Below are positions 29,293 through 32,915 of a DNA stretch of 64,000 nucleotides, piece by piece (within the stretch, counting starts at the first letter, position 1; every line of letters starts with the position of its first letter). The stretch spans positions 62,001 to 126,000 of the forward strand of contig NZ_PCPT01000005.1 in the NCBI RefSeq assembly GCF_002975435.1, given 5' to 3'. The notes beneath the pieces were generated by a model. The model was not told the origin of the DNA and did no database searches. It saw nothing but the letters and a program-made list of their open reading frames with translations. The translations under genes and the position numbers were made by a program. Source of the stretch: Arthrobacter sp. MYb227. Lineage in GTDB: Bacteria; Actinomycetota; Actinomycetes; Actinomycetales; Micrococcaceae.

Positions 29293-30792
29293 TTATCCAA
29301 GCTGCGGCCCTAGACGCGTGTAGGTCTGATTCCCCGGCCCCTTGAGGACGCACGATGCGAGCAGCGGCAGCTCCCGGTGGGCAAGTTTGTGCCCGGTGAT
29401 CCAGTCTCTCCATTCAATCCTCAGTGTGTAAGTTCCGGCAGTCGGAGGATGTAAGAGCAAATCGTAGCGTTCGGCCGAACCCATGGAAAGGGTATGGGTG
29501 AATAAGTGGGCGCTGGGGTCCGGATGCATGCTGGTGGGGATTGCCGGGGCTCCGGGGGTTGCGGTGTGCCGGTAAGGCCGCCCATCGTGGGAGACCAGTT
29601 CGGCGATGCGCGCGGGTGTCCCGTCGGGATTCACGAAGGTGATCTTATTCGGTAGGTAGTTACCGTCCAGGAAGCGCATCAGGCTTGGCGCCTTTCCATG
29701 GCCCGAGACGTTGATTGGCAGTTGGGTGGGGGCCCAGACTTCCTCGCCCGTTTCCCGGCGTTGGGCCAAGAGGCCTCCGGTGATGTAGAAGTGGGTTGGT
29801 TCGAAACGGTTCAACCCGACGTCTTCGCCGGAAAGCCCTGCCGCATGTCCCATCTTGTGCCAGCGCGGATCAATGGAAAACGGCATGATCAGTGACTCGG
29901 TGGCGATATCGTATTCGGGCCCGTCCGCAAAGGCACGCCGGTTGCCCGGGGCGACCGGGAAACCCGGCAGTTCGATCGGATCGATGATTAAGGGGCCAAG
30001 TAGTCCCATCTGGGCGTGGAGCGGGGTATTGACGTGGCAGTGGTAGAAGTATGTTCCGGCCGCACCATAATTCGGGTCGTGTGTCCGACCAGGTTCGGGC
30101 TGCCACTGGTAGGTGTAGTGGTCATCGATCTCAAATGAGGTGTGTCCCACGCCGTCATTTCGCGGGTCCGGTTCCATGCCATGCCAGTGAATACTGTGTG
30201 GGCCCATGCTGGGCTCCACCCGGGCATGGAAAATACCCTTTTCCGTCGGACGCAGGGTAGGCCCGGGAAATCCGCGTCCCGAGCTGTCTTGGTGGAATAC
30301 CCACATCTTGAACTTTGCGCCGTCTGGGAAACGCAGATCGCGACTGGATAGATCCAAATCGACAGATAGCTGCGGCGTTTCTAGGAAGTGCGTCTCGGGG
30401 GCATCCTGCTGCATCTGGTGTGATGCAAAGTCGGCTTGCGAGTCATACTCGCGTTCCTCGCCGTCGTCATCCGATGATGGTGATGGTCGAGTTGGCCGTG
30501 GTGTTGGTGTGCTCGACCGGGTGGGAGTTGGCCCCGTTGTGCCCGGTGCGGGCGTTGGGCTCGGCGTCGCCGAGCGCGTTGCTGAGGGCTGGGAGCTGGG
30601 GGTCGCGGAGCGAGAAGGCTGTGGACGTGGGCTCTTGCTGGGTGAAGGTTTTGGTTTCTGCCGCTCCCGGGGTCCGGGCGACTTGTCATCCCTACGCTTG
30701 GTGGAGGATTTTTTCTTATCATCGTCGTCCGAACGCCGTTTGCCTTCCGAAACCACGGTCGCGCTTGGTGCGGCCCAACCTCGTAGTCGCAT
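29293..30792 (-). CDS. Multicopper oxidase, N-terminal-half polypeptide (MCO-B)
   Basis: 499 residues from an ATG at 30792, behind a GGAGG ribosome site; an ATG at 30807 overlaps the upstream gene. Residues about 25-110 are a Lys/Asp then Pro/Ser/Thr-rich disordered stretch. Two cupredoxin domains follow, with trinuclear-site motifs HSIHWHGME (His199, His202, His204) and TYFYHCHVNTPLHAQMG (His251, Cys252, His253). NDGVGHTSFEIDDHYTYQW is reminiscent of MofA/MnxG-type manganese oxidases. The C-terminal HxH motifs of a complete oxidase are absent; they occur in the neighbouring gene. No signal peptide is seen. Confidence 0.85.
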   Translation of the reverse strand: MRLRGWAAPSATVVSEGKRRSDDDDKKKSSTKRRDDKSPGPRERQKPKPSPSKSPRPQPSRSATPSSQPSATRSATPSPTPAPGTTGPTPTRSSTPTPRPTRPSPSSDDDGEEREYDSQADFASHQMQQDAPETHFLETPQLSVDLDLSSRDLRFPDGAKFKMWVFHQDSSGRGFPGPTLRPTEKGIFHARVEPSMGPHSIHWHGMEPDPRNDGVGHTSFEIDDHYTYQWQPEPGRTHDPNYGAAGTYFYHCHVNTPLHAQMGLLGPLIIDPIELPGFPVAPGNRRAFADGPEYDIATESLIMPFSIDPRWHKMGHAAGLSGEDVGLNRFEPTHFYITGGLLAQRRETGEEVWAPTQLPINVSGHGKAPSLMRFLDGNYLPNKITFVNPDGTPARIAELVSHDGRPYRHTATPGAPAIPTSMHPDPSAHLFTHTLSMGSAERYDLLLHPPTAGTYTLRIEWRDWITGHKLAHRELPLLASCVLKGPGNQTYTRLGPQLG

Positions 30793-30796
30793 GGTC

Positions 30797-32242
30797 CTAG
30801 CCTCCATTCACCTGTGATTTGAGTTCCCAGTGGGCGACAAGCCCGCCGGGGTACATACCGCCTGCAGCTGTTTGTGACATTTCGGCGTGGCAGTGCATGG
30901 GATATTTCCAGTCTTCGGTCCTGTTGTACCAAACCTTGTCTGTGGCATCCGGTGGTCGCTTCAAAGGAATGATGCAGTCCTTACGATCCATGGGTGGGAG
31001 CTCGATGACGTCTTCCCATTGCTGCAGCACCACGTGCCCGTCCGCGTCGACGTGGCCAAATTCGCGCGGCCATTCAACATTGTTGCGCCGCACCGTCCAC
31101 AGGTGGTTTCCGTGGAAGTGCATTTGGTGGCTGGCAATCCCCGGATTAACCATTCTTACGGCTTGGCCGCCGCGCAGGGTACCCAGCGCCAGATCCTCAC
31201 CGAAGTTCCGGATATCTACCTGCCGCGGGTAGCCGGAAATGAGTGATTCCTCGTGGGCCAGACGATTGAGTTCTCGGTTTGGTGAGTGGCCAAGTGCCTC
31301 ATACCCGCTGCGGTCGTTGAGCATGAAATAGCGGGGCACCGCGGGGTCGGTCAGCGGATTGACGGTTCCGCCGGCCGCCTCGATGCGTGCCCATGTGGTG
31401 TCGATGGCGTGGGTCATCCATAGCCATTGCCTTTCGAATGCCATTTGGTTCGGGGCTACCCGCCAGGGATCATCCGGATCCATCACAAGAATTGTGCCAA
31501 AGAGCCCCAGCGCGCGTTGTACCGGGGCATTTGTTGGATCGTAGTAGATGTAGGTTCCGGCGTAGGGAGCATCAAATTCAAGTAATGCCTGCCCGCCCGG
31601 GGCTATGGGGCCGGTGCTCAGATCGCTGCGGCCGTGCGCCGCCTGGGCGACTGTGAGTTGGTGAGTTCCGGCAAGCCCGTTGAACACACGTAGCCGCACC
31701 GTTGCGCCACTTTCGACAATGATGGTGCGTTGCGGGAAGAAGCTGGCCCAGTGGTTGCGCCTGATAAAGAATTGGCCCGGGTTTGCCGGATCCGCTCCTG
31801 CCGGTGCGGGCGTTCCGTTGGGTGGTATTGCGGCCCCTAATGGATAGGTTCTGGATTCGACAACCTGCCCTTCGCGCGTGAAGATTTTGGGGACGACCCG
31901 CAGGGATGGCCTCGCGTCCCGTAGCGCGGTAGGCCGGTCACCGAAGCCACGTTGATAGACCAAAGAGTCATCGACCATTTTGGTATACCCCTCGTTGATA
32001 TAGAGGTCGAGCACCCCGGGAAGCGGCACCGCGGAGGCGGTAAATCGTCCATGGGCCCGCGGCACTCCGGCGGCCGAGACCGGAGAAACCGCCGCTCCCA
32101 TGGCCACGGCGGTCCCCCAAGCGGTAGCCGCCCCAAATTTTAGGAGTGTGGATCTGTTGATCCCGGGTTCGACAGGGTGCAACGCACTATCGGTATCGGA
32201 GACAGAGCTGGGTGTTATGGCAGGCGTATTTTCGCTAGACAT
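30797..32242 (-). CDS. Multicopper oxidase, C-terminal-half polypeptide (MCO-A)
   Basis: 481 residues. A hydrophobic leader follows GINRSTLLKFG at about residues 28-60, Tat-like but without twin arginine. The first cupredoxin domain looks like a copper-site relic (GTYIYYDPTNAPVQRALGLFG, where histidines are expected). The C-terminal domain keeps SHQMHFHGNHL (His372, His375, His377) and KYPMHCHAEMSQTAAGGMYP (His450, Cys451, His452). The HxHxExSQT-GG pattern recalls MofA/MnxG oxidases. Its ATG overlaps the accessory gene by eight bases and has a GGAGGA site; the MCO-B start follows its stop by four bases. Confidence 0.85.
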   Translation of the reverse strand: MSSENTPAITPSSVSDTDSALHPVEPGINRSTLLKFGAATAWGTAVAMGAAVSPVSAAGVPRAHGRFTASAVPLPGVLDLYINEGYTKMVDDSLVYQRGFGDRPTALRDARPSLRVVPKIFTREGQVVESRTYPLGAAIPPNGTPAPAGADPANPGQFFIRRNHWASFFPQRTIIVESGATVRLRVFNGLAGTHQLTVAQAAHGRSDLSTGPIAPGGQALLEFDAPYAGTYIYYDPTNAPVQRALGLFGTILVMDPDDPWRVAPNQMAFERQWLWMTHAIDTTWARIEAAGGTVNPLTDPAVPRYFMLNDRSGYEALGHSPNRELNRLAHEESLISGYPRQVDIRNFGEDLALGTLRGGQAVRMVNPGIASHQMHFHGNHLWTVRRNNVEWPREFGHVDADGHVVLQQWEDVIELPPMDRKDCIIPLKRPPDATDKVWYNRTEDWKYPMHCHAEMSQTAAGGMYPGGLVAHWELKSQVNGG

Positions 32243-32915
32243 GAGCTTCCTCCAAGAATCCGGGACGCCAACTCACAGCAGGCAGTGGCAGTTCTAGCAG
32301 TTCGGTGCCCGGATTGGTGATGTCATCAAACACGGCGGTGAATTCCGTGGCGTCCGAGGGAACCAAGAAACTGATGTTGGCCATGATTCGGGCTCCGGGA
32401 AGCAAAAGACCCGGCGGGTAATTGTTCCAGCGGTTGACCACAAGCCACGGCTGGCTGTTTCCCCTCACCCGTAATTGCCCGGGCGAAAACATCTGCTCCT
32501 GCTCGCTATCATTGAAGACTTCGAGCTGAAGCAGCAGATGATCGCCGAATGTCATGTTTACTGGTTGGCGTTCACCACCCACGGCGGGCTGGTGTTCGGC
32601 ATGGCCGGCCGGTGCCGCATTACTGGAAGGCAGGCGTGCCTGACGCTCAGCCTTAGAAATCCGTGCCTGTCCAAAGCAGGTACGAATAGTGGTGGTCCCC
32701 AAGGGACCTGATCCGGCAAAGGCAACTGCCAAGGCGGTCATGCCGGCGCTTCCCAGGACAAGAGCAGACCCAATGGTGATGCCCAAAGTGCGGCGTGAGA
32801 TCAATGGTTTTTCGGCATCCGATTCGATGGATTCTAGATCGATGCCATGATGGCGCGGTTTAGCGCGATTTCCCCAAGATTTAGGCACGGCCGGTTCAAC
32901 CTCCCCAAGTTGCAA
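32235..32915 (-). CDS. Membrane-anchored accessory protein of the multicopper oxidase operon
   Basis: 226 residues. After a 40-residue polar start, LISRRTLGITIGSALVLGSA gives a twin-arginine-like motif and one membrane segment. The extracytoplasmic part has a short histidine stretch (PAGHAEHQPA) and a beta-sandwich-like domain (NMTFGDHLLLQLEVFND, then SPGQLRVRGNSQPWLVV, FTAVFDD). I do not recognise a family. It is the first gene of the three-gene operon and could anchor or metallate the oxidases, or lend them a Tat signal. The TTG at 32915 has a GGAGG site 5 bases before it; a GTG at 32888 is also possible. Confidence 0.7.
   Translation of the reverse strand: MQLGEVEPAVPKSWGNRAKPRHHGIDLESIESDAEKPLISRRTLGITIGSALVLGSAGMTALAVAFAGSGPLGTTTIRTCFGQARISKAERQARLPSSNAAPAGHAEHQPAVGGERQPVNMTFGDHLLLQLEVFNDSEQEQMFSPGQLRVRGNSQPWLVVNRWNNYPPGLLLPGARIMANISFLVPSDATEFTAVFDDITNPGTELLELPLPAVSWRPGFLEEAHV

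Follow-up and report, generated by a model that had tools for sequence, protein, structure and literature searches.

How could two adjacent genes, each supplying half of the ligands of a trinuclear copper site, give rise to a working multicopper oxidase (MCO)? This question is raised by a stretch of 64,000 nucleotides from Arthrobacter sp. MYb227 (contig NZ_PCPT01000005.1, positions 62,001 to 126,000), hereafter designated as the window, in which two oxidase-like genes, A and B, lie next to each other and to a third gene, C, all on the minus strand. Comparisons of their products with homologous sequences suggest, with a probability that we put at about 0.8, that A and B together make up one extracytoplasmic MCO in which neither half is dispensable, most likely a heterodimer that would be functional only as a pair. 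Gene A (30797..32242) encodes 481 amino acids and gene B (29293..30792) encodes 499 amino acids, the latter with a Lys/Ser/Pro-rich N-terminal tail and no signal peptide. The open frame of B extends from 30807, and 30792 was taken as the likelier start because an ATG is found there, 4 bases past the A stop, with a GGAGG motif ahead of it; residues in B are counted from this ATG and would be numbered 5 higher from the start of the open frame. Since the open frame of gene C overlaps gene A by 8 bases, the three genes indeed overlap or lie within 4 bases of each other, as described in an original prediction made from the DNA letters alone.

The copper ligands are divided between the two chains. 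Conservation was counted on 95 A and 90 B candidates covering the motif region, which correspond to 81 and 84 distinct rows, counting the window copy (L001); most frames that were broken or truncated at a contig end lay outside these alignment sets. In A, the motif H372-x-x-H375-x-H377 (31112..31129, HQMHFH, within the letters HQMHFHGNH) retains H375 and H377 in 81/81 sequences and H372 in 79/81, and the motif H450-C451-H452 (30887..30895, within HCHAEMSQTAAGG) retains both His in 81/81 and the Cys in 73/81. The type 1 (T1) partner His that would be expected to follow is replaced by Ser456, a position occupied by Ser or Thr in all 81 sequences. Because Cys451 has no T1 partner His and is itself absent in 8/81 sequences, A holds no complete T1 site. 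In B, the motif H199-S-I-H202-W-H204 (30181..30198) has all of its His in 84/84 sequences, and the motif H251-C252-H253-VNTPL-H259-AQ-M262 (30007..30042), which supplies the remaining T1 ligands together with its part of the trinuclear set, is invariant at its ligand positions except for M262 (81/84). The full T1 ligand set (H199, C252, H259 and M262) is therefore carried by B domain 1, and alignments assign the two trinuclear halves to B domain 1 (H202/H204/H251/H253) and A domain 2 (H375/H377/H450/H452). A domain 1 lacks the HxH pairs, and no conserved HxH pair occurs in B domain 2. Judged from these alignments, the T1 copper is predicted to belong to B, with A giving trinuclear ligands only.

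A further 13 pairs, eight of them distant, display the same division: the B rows keep the whole ligand set in 13/13, and both HxH pairs are kept by 12 of the 13 A rows, the A row of L184 failing to align at the second motif. The middle Cys of A is kept in 2 of these 12 rows and replaced by T, S, V, N, L or F in the other 10. Chance is excluded by the conservation of the ligands across two phyla. The original prediction had placed only N-terminal HxH pairs in B (H199/H202/H204 and HCH 251-253, numbers that are exact with the start at 30792) and only C-terminal pairs in A (His372/375/377 and His-Cys-His 450-452); all of them were located as described, and the division is borne out in the 84 B and 81 A sequences. 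In addition, B carries a His in a WH motif past domain 1 (His312, 29857-29859) that is not among the predicted copper ligands and is conserved in 81/84 B sequences, with an equivalent in each of the 13 additional B rows (as YH in three of them, otherwise WH); it is a possible candidate for a substrate or proton-path residue.

The two genes also travel together. Among 245 genomes of the family, A was detected in 25 (E<=1e-80, weaker matches being generic oxidases), all of which also hold B, and B was detected in 26 (E<=1e-20), 25 of them with A; the exception is a 70-residue B remnant. This remnant was found in a same-genus genome without A (G022:C2:381070-381279), from which the pair seems to have been lost together. 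The pair would be accessory, since it is carried by 5 of the 15 same-genus genomes listed, including that of the window. Seventy-eight B-bearing loci were collected from GTDB genomes: in 42 a separate A immediately precedes B, in 29 both are encoded by one frame of about 800 amino acids, and the remaining seven lack an upstream A (L040, L050), are cut by contig ends (L057, L104, and the fusion L072) or contain interrupted frames (L089, L090). A comes before B in all 71 split and fused loci. Conservation in relatives, a check proposed with the original prediction, is thus found for A and B in 25/25 A-bearing family genomes and, as A-B order or fusion, at 71/78 GTDB loci. Within the class of a Thiobacillus genome (G245), B profile searches gave 35 matches in 27 of 321 genomes (E<=1e-25), and in 12 of the 13 stretches chosen from these matches the gene immediately preceding B is A. 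The remaining stretch breaks off at the end of its contig and shows two tandem B-like genes (L180, 8444-10638), with no A partner on the contig.

With natural fusions in hand, one may ask whether the window simply holds one oxidase gene that has decayed or suffered a frameshift. Fused homologues exist, and broken frames occur in relatives (L089, L090, L151 and probably L110), but both frames of the window are intact, each with its own ribosome-binding motif, and the split form is the commoner one (42 vs 29) as well as the sole form among proteobacterial tree rows; we regard such decay as extremely improbable. The tree was built by a quick method from 60 rows (22 fused, 38 split) drawn from the loci then collected, and several of its forks are weak or open. 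On this tree, the fused or split state needs three changes, at least two of which are forced by well-supported branches, and all basal actinobacterial rows but L058 are split.

The closest known relatives point to the way in which the two halves might fit together. Both chains are long enough for two domains, and each has one passing cupredoxin domain in Pfam (Cu-oxidase_3, 33.2 bits for A and 36.3 bits for B). They fall far under the cutoffs of the NCBIfam oxidase models listed: B reached 39.7 bits with the CopA model TIGR01480 (cutoff 478.95) and 14.7 bits with the CueO model (cutoff 525), and the copper nitrite reductase model TIGR02376 (cutoff 296.3) gave 25.9 bits for A and 14.6 bits for B. 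The nearest solved chains of A by sequence are a laccase and copper nitrite reductases, all weak matches. Those of B, and of a profile of the fused family, are type C two-domain oxidases, namely the blue copper oxidase of Nitrosomonas europaea (3g5w) and a two-domain type laccase (2zwn). According to the accessible part of the source, type C enzymes hold their trinuclear site between protomers, with domain 2 of one chain facing domain 1 of the next (PMC13151041). Two stretches of the fused-family profile align with 2zwn and 3g5w in reversed order, B domain 1 corresponding to their domain 1 and A domain 2 to their domain 2; because of this reversal, the pairing of A domain 2 with B domain 1 would be equivalent to the protomer interface of a two-domain oxidase. 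As in type C enzymes, the T1 copper would be confined to an N-terminal-type domain, here that of B. In contrast to these enzymes, where one chain holds every ligand and assembles as a trimer, the halves of the A/B site lie on two different chains, two of the four domains are devoid of conserved copper ligands, and in the fused form the domains follow each other in the opposite order. A/B is most likely a permuted, asymmetric relative of the type C oxidases rather than a manganese oxidase. The original proposal that the ligands of one trinuclear site are divided between A and B finds support in the joint occurrence of the two genes, in their fusion in some relatives, in the retention of the ligands and in the reversed-order match to two-domain oxidases.

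In the mechanism that we propose, electrons from the substrate would enter at the T1 copper in B domain 1 and run along the Cys-His path to the trinuclear cluster, which would be built by the four B and four A His listed above and would reduce O2 to water. A domain 1 and B domain 2 would have lost their copper and may serve as scaffold. The ligand logic would be that of a single D2-D1 interface of a type C oxidase, formed here by two different subunits.

An extracytoplasmic enzyme made of two chains has to be exported, and the third gene may take part in this step. Gene C has its open frame at 32235..32915, with a GTG at 32888 as the likelier start, and its product carries a signal resembling those of the twin-arginine translocation (Tat) pathway (SRRTLGI), followed by one predicted helix of membrane-spanning length, a short His-containing linker and a DUF4352-like beta-sandwich. 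The predicted model (mean predicted local distance difference test score, pLDDT, 75.4; predicted template modelling score, pTM, 0.59; alignment of 36 rows) shows a helix and a beta-sandwich, the latter matching best with YjhA of Bacillus and proteins like it, which we take to be DUF4352 structures; in one C homologue, the DUF4352 match is below threshold (20.9 bits, cutoff 25.9). The motif [STN]RRxxG occurs in 57/62 frames of C homologues, one of them (L056) probably by chance. C is present at 16/29 fused and 24/30 split actinobacterial loci (one further being weak), and at 0/26 other loci, all but L095 taken as proteobacterial. Its predicted membrane helix and its presence at most actinobacterial loci are in line with the membrane-anchored partner foreseen from the letters.

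Export signals were scored as the mean hydropathy over 15 residues upstream of the domain, with a threshold of 1.6. In the window, C scores 1.96 and A scores 1.58, the latter for a hydrophobic segment behind a Tat-like N-terminus with a single Arg (NRSTLLKF). Across 48 B frames lacking an in-frame A, the hydropathy ahead of the domain never reached the threshold (maximum 1.37; four were too short to score). Likewise, among L181-L192, an A bearing the twin-arginine (RR) motif is paired with a signal-less B (hydropathy below 1) in 8/9 cases, which represent few lineages; the twin-arginine signals of proteobacterial A proteins were judged by eye. Since the close relatives of B have no export signal, window-type B probably crosses the membrane by Tat together with A or C. 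We thus envisage that B would cross with A and, in most actinobacterial loci, also with C, which would anchor the complex to the membrane. Other N-terminal features were seen in three gammaproteobacterial loci (L103, L106 and L107), which have long Gly/Met repeats ahead of B domain 1.

Several observations weigh against the idea of two obligate halves exported together. The hydropathy measure separates A from B only roughly, reaching 1.6 in 7/41 A frames (25 scorable) and in 0/29 fused frames (20 scorable). A signal-like segment of its own is found on B in L185, L186, L188 and one L180 gene, with a weaker one in L183, and a B-like protein of L147 has its own Tat-like signal; because of such distant copies, the statement that B is signal-less is limited to close relatives. 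In L185, L186 and L188, A has a non-RR signal and its partner B a hydrophobic signal. In 13/29 fused loci, the searches for an export signal and for C at the locus were both negative. These 13 loci (L053, L054, L063, L070, L076-L079, L082-L085 and L087) may encode cytoplasmic proteins or proteins exported with an unlinked partner. Taken by itself, A is closest to copper nitrite reductases in profile searches, and the overlay of a fused model on ceruloplasmin and MnxG gives a TMq of about 0.5 and a root-mean-square deviation (rmsd) of 9-10 Å. Finally, A occurs without an adjacent B at six places (L109, L149, L151 with a broken frame, one of two copies in L161, L175 and L178) and B without an upstream A at two (L040, L050).

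Such lone copies would be expected if A and B were two independent oxidases or copper-binding proteins with separate roles that happen to be neighbours. Yet neither chain has more than half of the trinuclear ligands, the co-occurrence by genome is 25/25, fusions exist, and the order is fixed in two phyla, so that we consider independent roles very unlikely. Four of the genomes with a lone A hold the pair or a fusion elsewhere, in a genome search covering hosts other than that of pTC1. Plasmid pTC1 (L109, 7641-9221 and 113-1174) carries A with C but without B, MntH lying about 1 kb from this A, and decayed A-B pieces about 7 kb away.

An AlphaFold2 model of the natural A-B fusion of L079 (782 amino acids) is mainly beta and confident (mean pLDDT 92.6, pTM 0.93); it relied on an alignment of 98 rows restricted to the window and the GTDB B-loci, and further alignments had 21 and 20 rows. 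Within the PDB, the model is closest to clotting factors, to the Mnx complex 9bxa (TMq 0.51, ranked second) and to rat ceruloplasmin 5n0k (TMq 0.51), with rmsd values of 9-12 Å. MnxG is likewise a multi-domain cupredoxin protein, and A/B might be seen as an MnxG/MofA-type Mn(II) oxidase with C as an MnxE/MnxF-like partner. In one Arthrobacter plasmid, MntH and a DtxR/MntR-family regulator (168.6 bits with the MntR model, cutoff 350) are encoded near an A/B copy, and MntH is also found near A-only copies on pTC1 and one chromosome. However, close MntH homologues occur in 3/25 actinobacterial stretches (L109, L110 and L175, the query being one of them; in L176 the match is 24%), probably as one mobile island. 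No MntH is found in the window or in loci L001-L108, and a conserved manganese operon was dropped from consideration. Ceruloplasmin and clotting factors V/VIII, which are animal proteins with longer chains and six or more domains, match the fused model about as well as MnxG (TMq 0.40-0.51, about 8-12% identity). Furthermore, MnxG is not among the best 60 of 242-260 passing chains in profile searches, and the best structural matches of C are the YjhA-like beta-sandwiches. MnxG and MofA are single large chains, unlike A and B or their fused relatives, and manganese genes lie near few A/B copies. MofA has four HxH motifs, as stated in the accessible part of its description (PMC8218464). MofA relatives were also discarded, all 35 B-profile matches in the 321 genomes lying in frames of at most 489 amino acids. 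An Mn(II) oxidase is unlikely. The profile and structure searches foreseen by the original prediction thus showed a likeness to two-domain oxidases, which are the best match for B and the fused profile, and did not sustain its link to Mn(II) oxidases, MnxG matching no better than ceruloplasmin and MntH neighbours being few.

For the O2-reducing MCO that we favour, the leading guess at a substrate is Cu(I), which is tentative, with phenolics or other metals, for instance Mn(II) or Fe(II), coming next. Were the substrate Cu(I), the enzyme would be a cuprous oxidase that confers copper tolerance by detoxifying this ion as CueO or CopA does. CusB and CusA genes lie beside A-B in 7/15 loci (L094-L108, profiles being checked for L098, L100 and L105), the Met at the T1 axial ligand position is conserved, and some proteobacterial B proteins have Gly/Met-rich tails; known cuprous oxidases have Met-rich segments. 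On the other hand, CusB occurs in 0/14 further loci (L111 and L180-L192), where the sole match to a resistance-nodulation-division (RND) protein is distant (34%, L181), giving 7/29 mostly proteobacterial loci overall, some with short flanks. The 83 actinobacterial stretches have no CusB and a single 25% RND match (L033), the actinobacterial B tails are Lys/Ser/Pro-rich, and the CopA model score is 39.7 bits for a cutoff of 479. Our confidence in Cu(I), already below even, was lowered slightly because the Cus genes are absent from the 14 further loci. A conserved operon with the RND pump encoded downstream in the window was also rejected: this pump reached 601 bits with a multidrug-type model (cutoff 1250) and 446 bits with a CusA/CzcA model (cutoff 701), neither of which was passed, and within the flanks examined L033 is the sole actinobacterial locus sharing an RND gene. 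No metal gene was found among 12 scanned neighbour proteins of the window. Overall, the neighbour genes give a weak and lineage-dependent picture of function.

Other systems with more than one MCO chain or gene invite comparison. Fungal laccases of the POXA3 type are likewise made of two different chains, the large one being a complete laccase by itself. Their second chain is small and, in the accessible part of the source, is reported to raise stability and activity (PMC10741624). Closest among published cases is the Sideroxydans cluster Slit_1812-1818, with tandem cupredoxin/MCO genes reported as more abundant on magnetite, and the accessible parts of their descriptions do not treat the cluster as one divided enzyme (PMC12016527, PMC5566968). 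With its adjacent and separate MCO genes, this cluster may be a distant cousin of A/B. SCO1, cytochrome and adhesin-like MCO genes, which belong to the Slit cluster, have no counterpart among the 12 other window proteins scanned, ten of them at E<=1e-15, of which three gave no match at all. A Terracoccus locus (L147, 2443-11970) resembles Slit_1812-1818: besides a B-like and an A-like MCO, it encodes a 1193-amino-acid repeat protein and an MCO-like protein that contains a long repeat region. In the literature searched, with subscription journals mostly outside its coverage, no account of a divided, permuted, four-domain or heterodimeric MCO like A/B was found; the original remark that no named system has such a division holds within that literature, with Slit_1816-1818 as a candidate distant cousin. 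Plasmid records name the halves 'multicopper oxidase domain-containing protein', 'hypothetical protein' or 'Tat domain protein'.

More broadly, we see an even chance that A and B represent a widespread, undescribed class of obligately heteromeric MCOs, in which the T1 copper and half of the trinuclear ligands would reside in B and the rest in A. Members of this class would be permuted relative to two-domain oxidases and would have been joined or separated repeatedly. In the branch to which the pair of the window belongs, they would be exported preassembled, a signal-less B travelling with the Tat-bearing A and, in Actinobacteria, with a membrane-anchored DUF4352-like partner, while in another branch both subunits have signals. 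Such a pair would have been hidden by the separate annotation of its halves. The MCOs compared here are self-sufficient chains or homotrimers, from which an asymmetric natural heterodimer would differ. If true, the heterodimer and its natural fusions would offer a direct way to study the evolution and assembly of inter-subunit trinuclear sites, and the Tat export of a preassembled copper enzyme, made of a signal-bearing and a signal-less subunit, would become testable.

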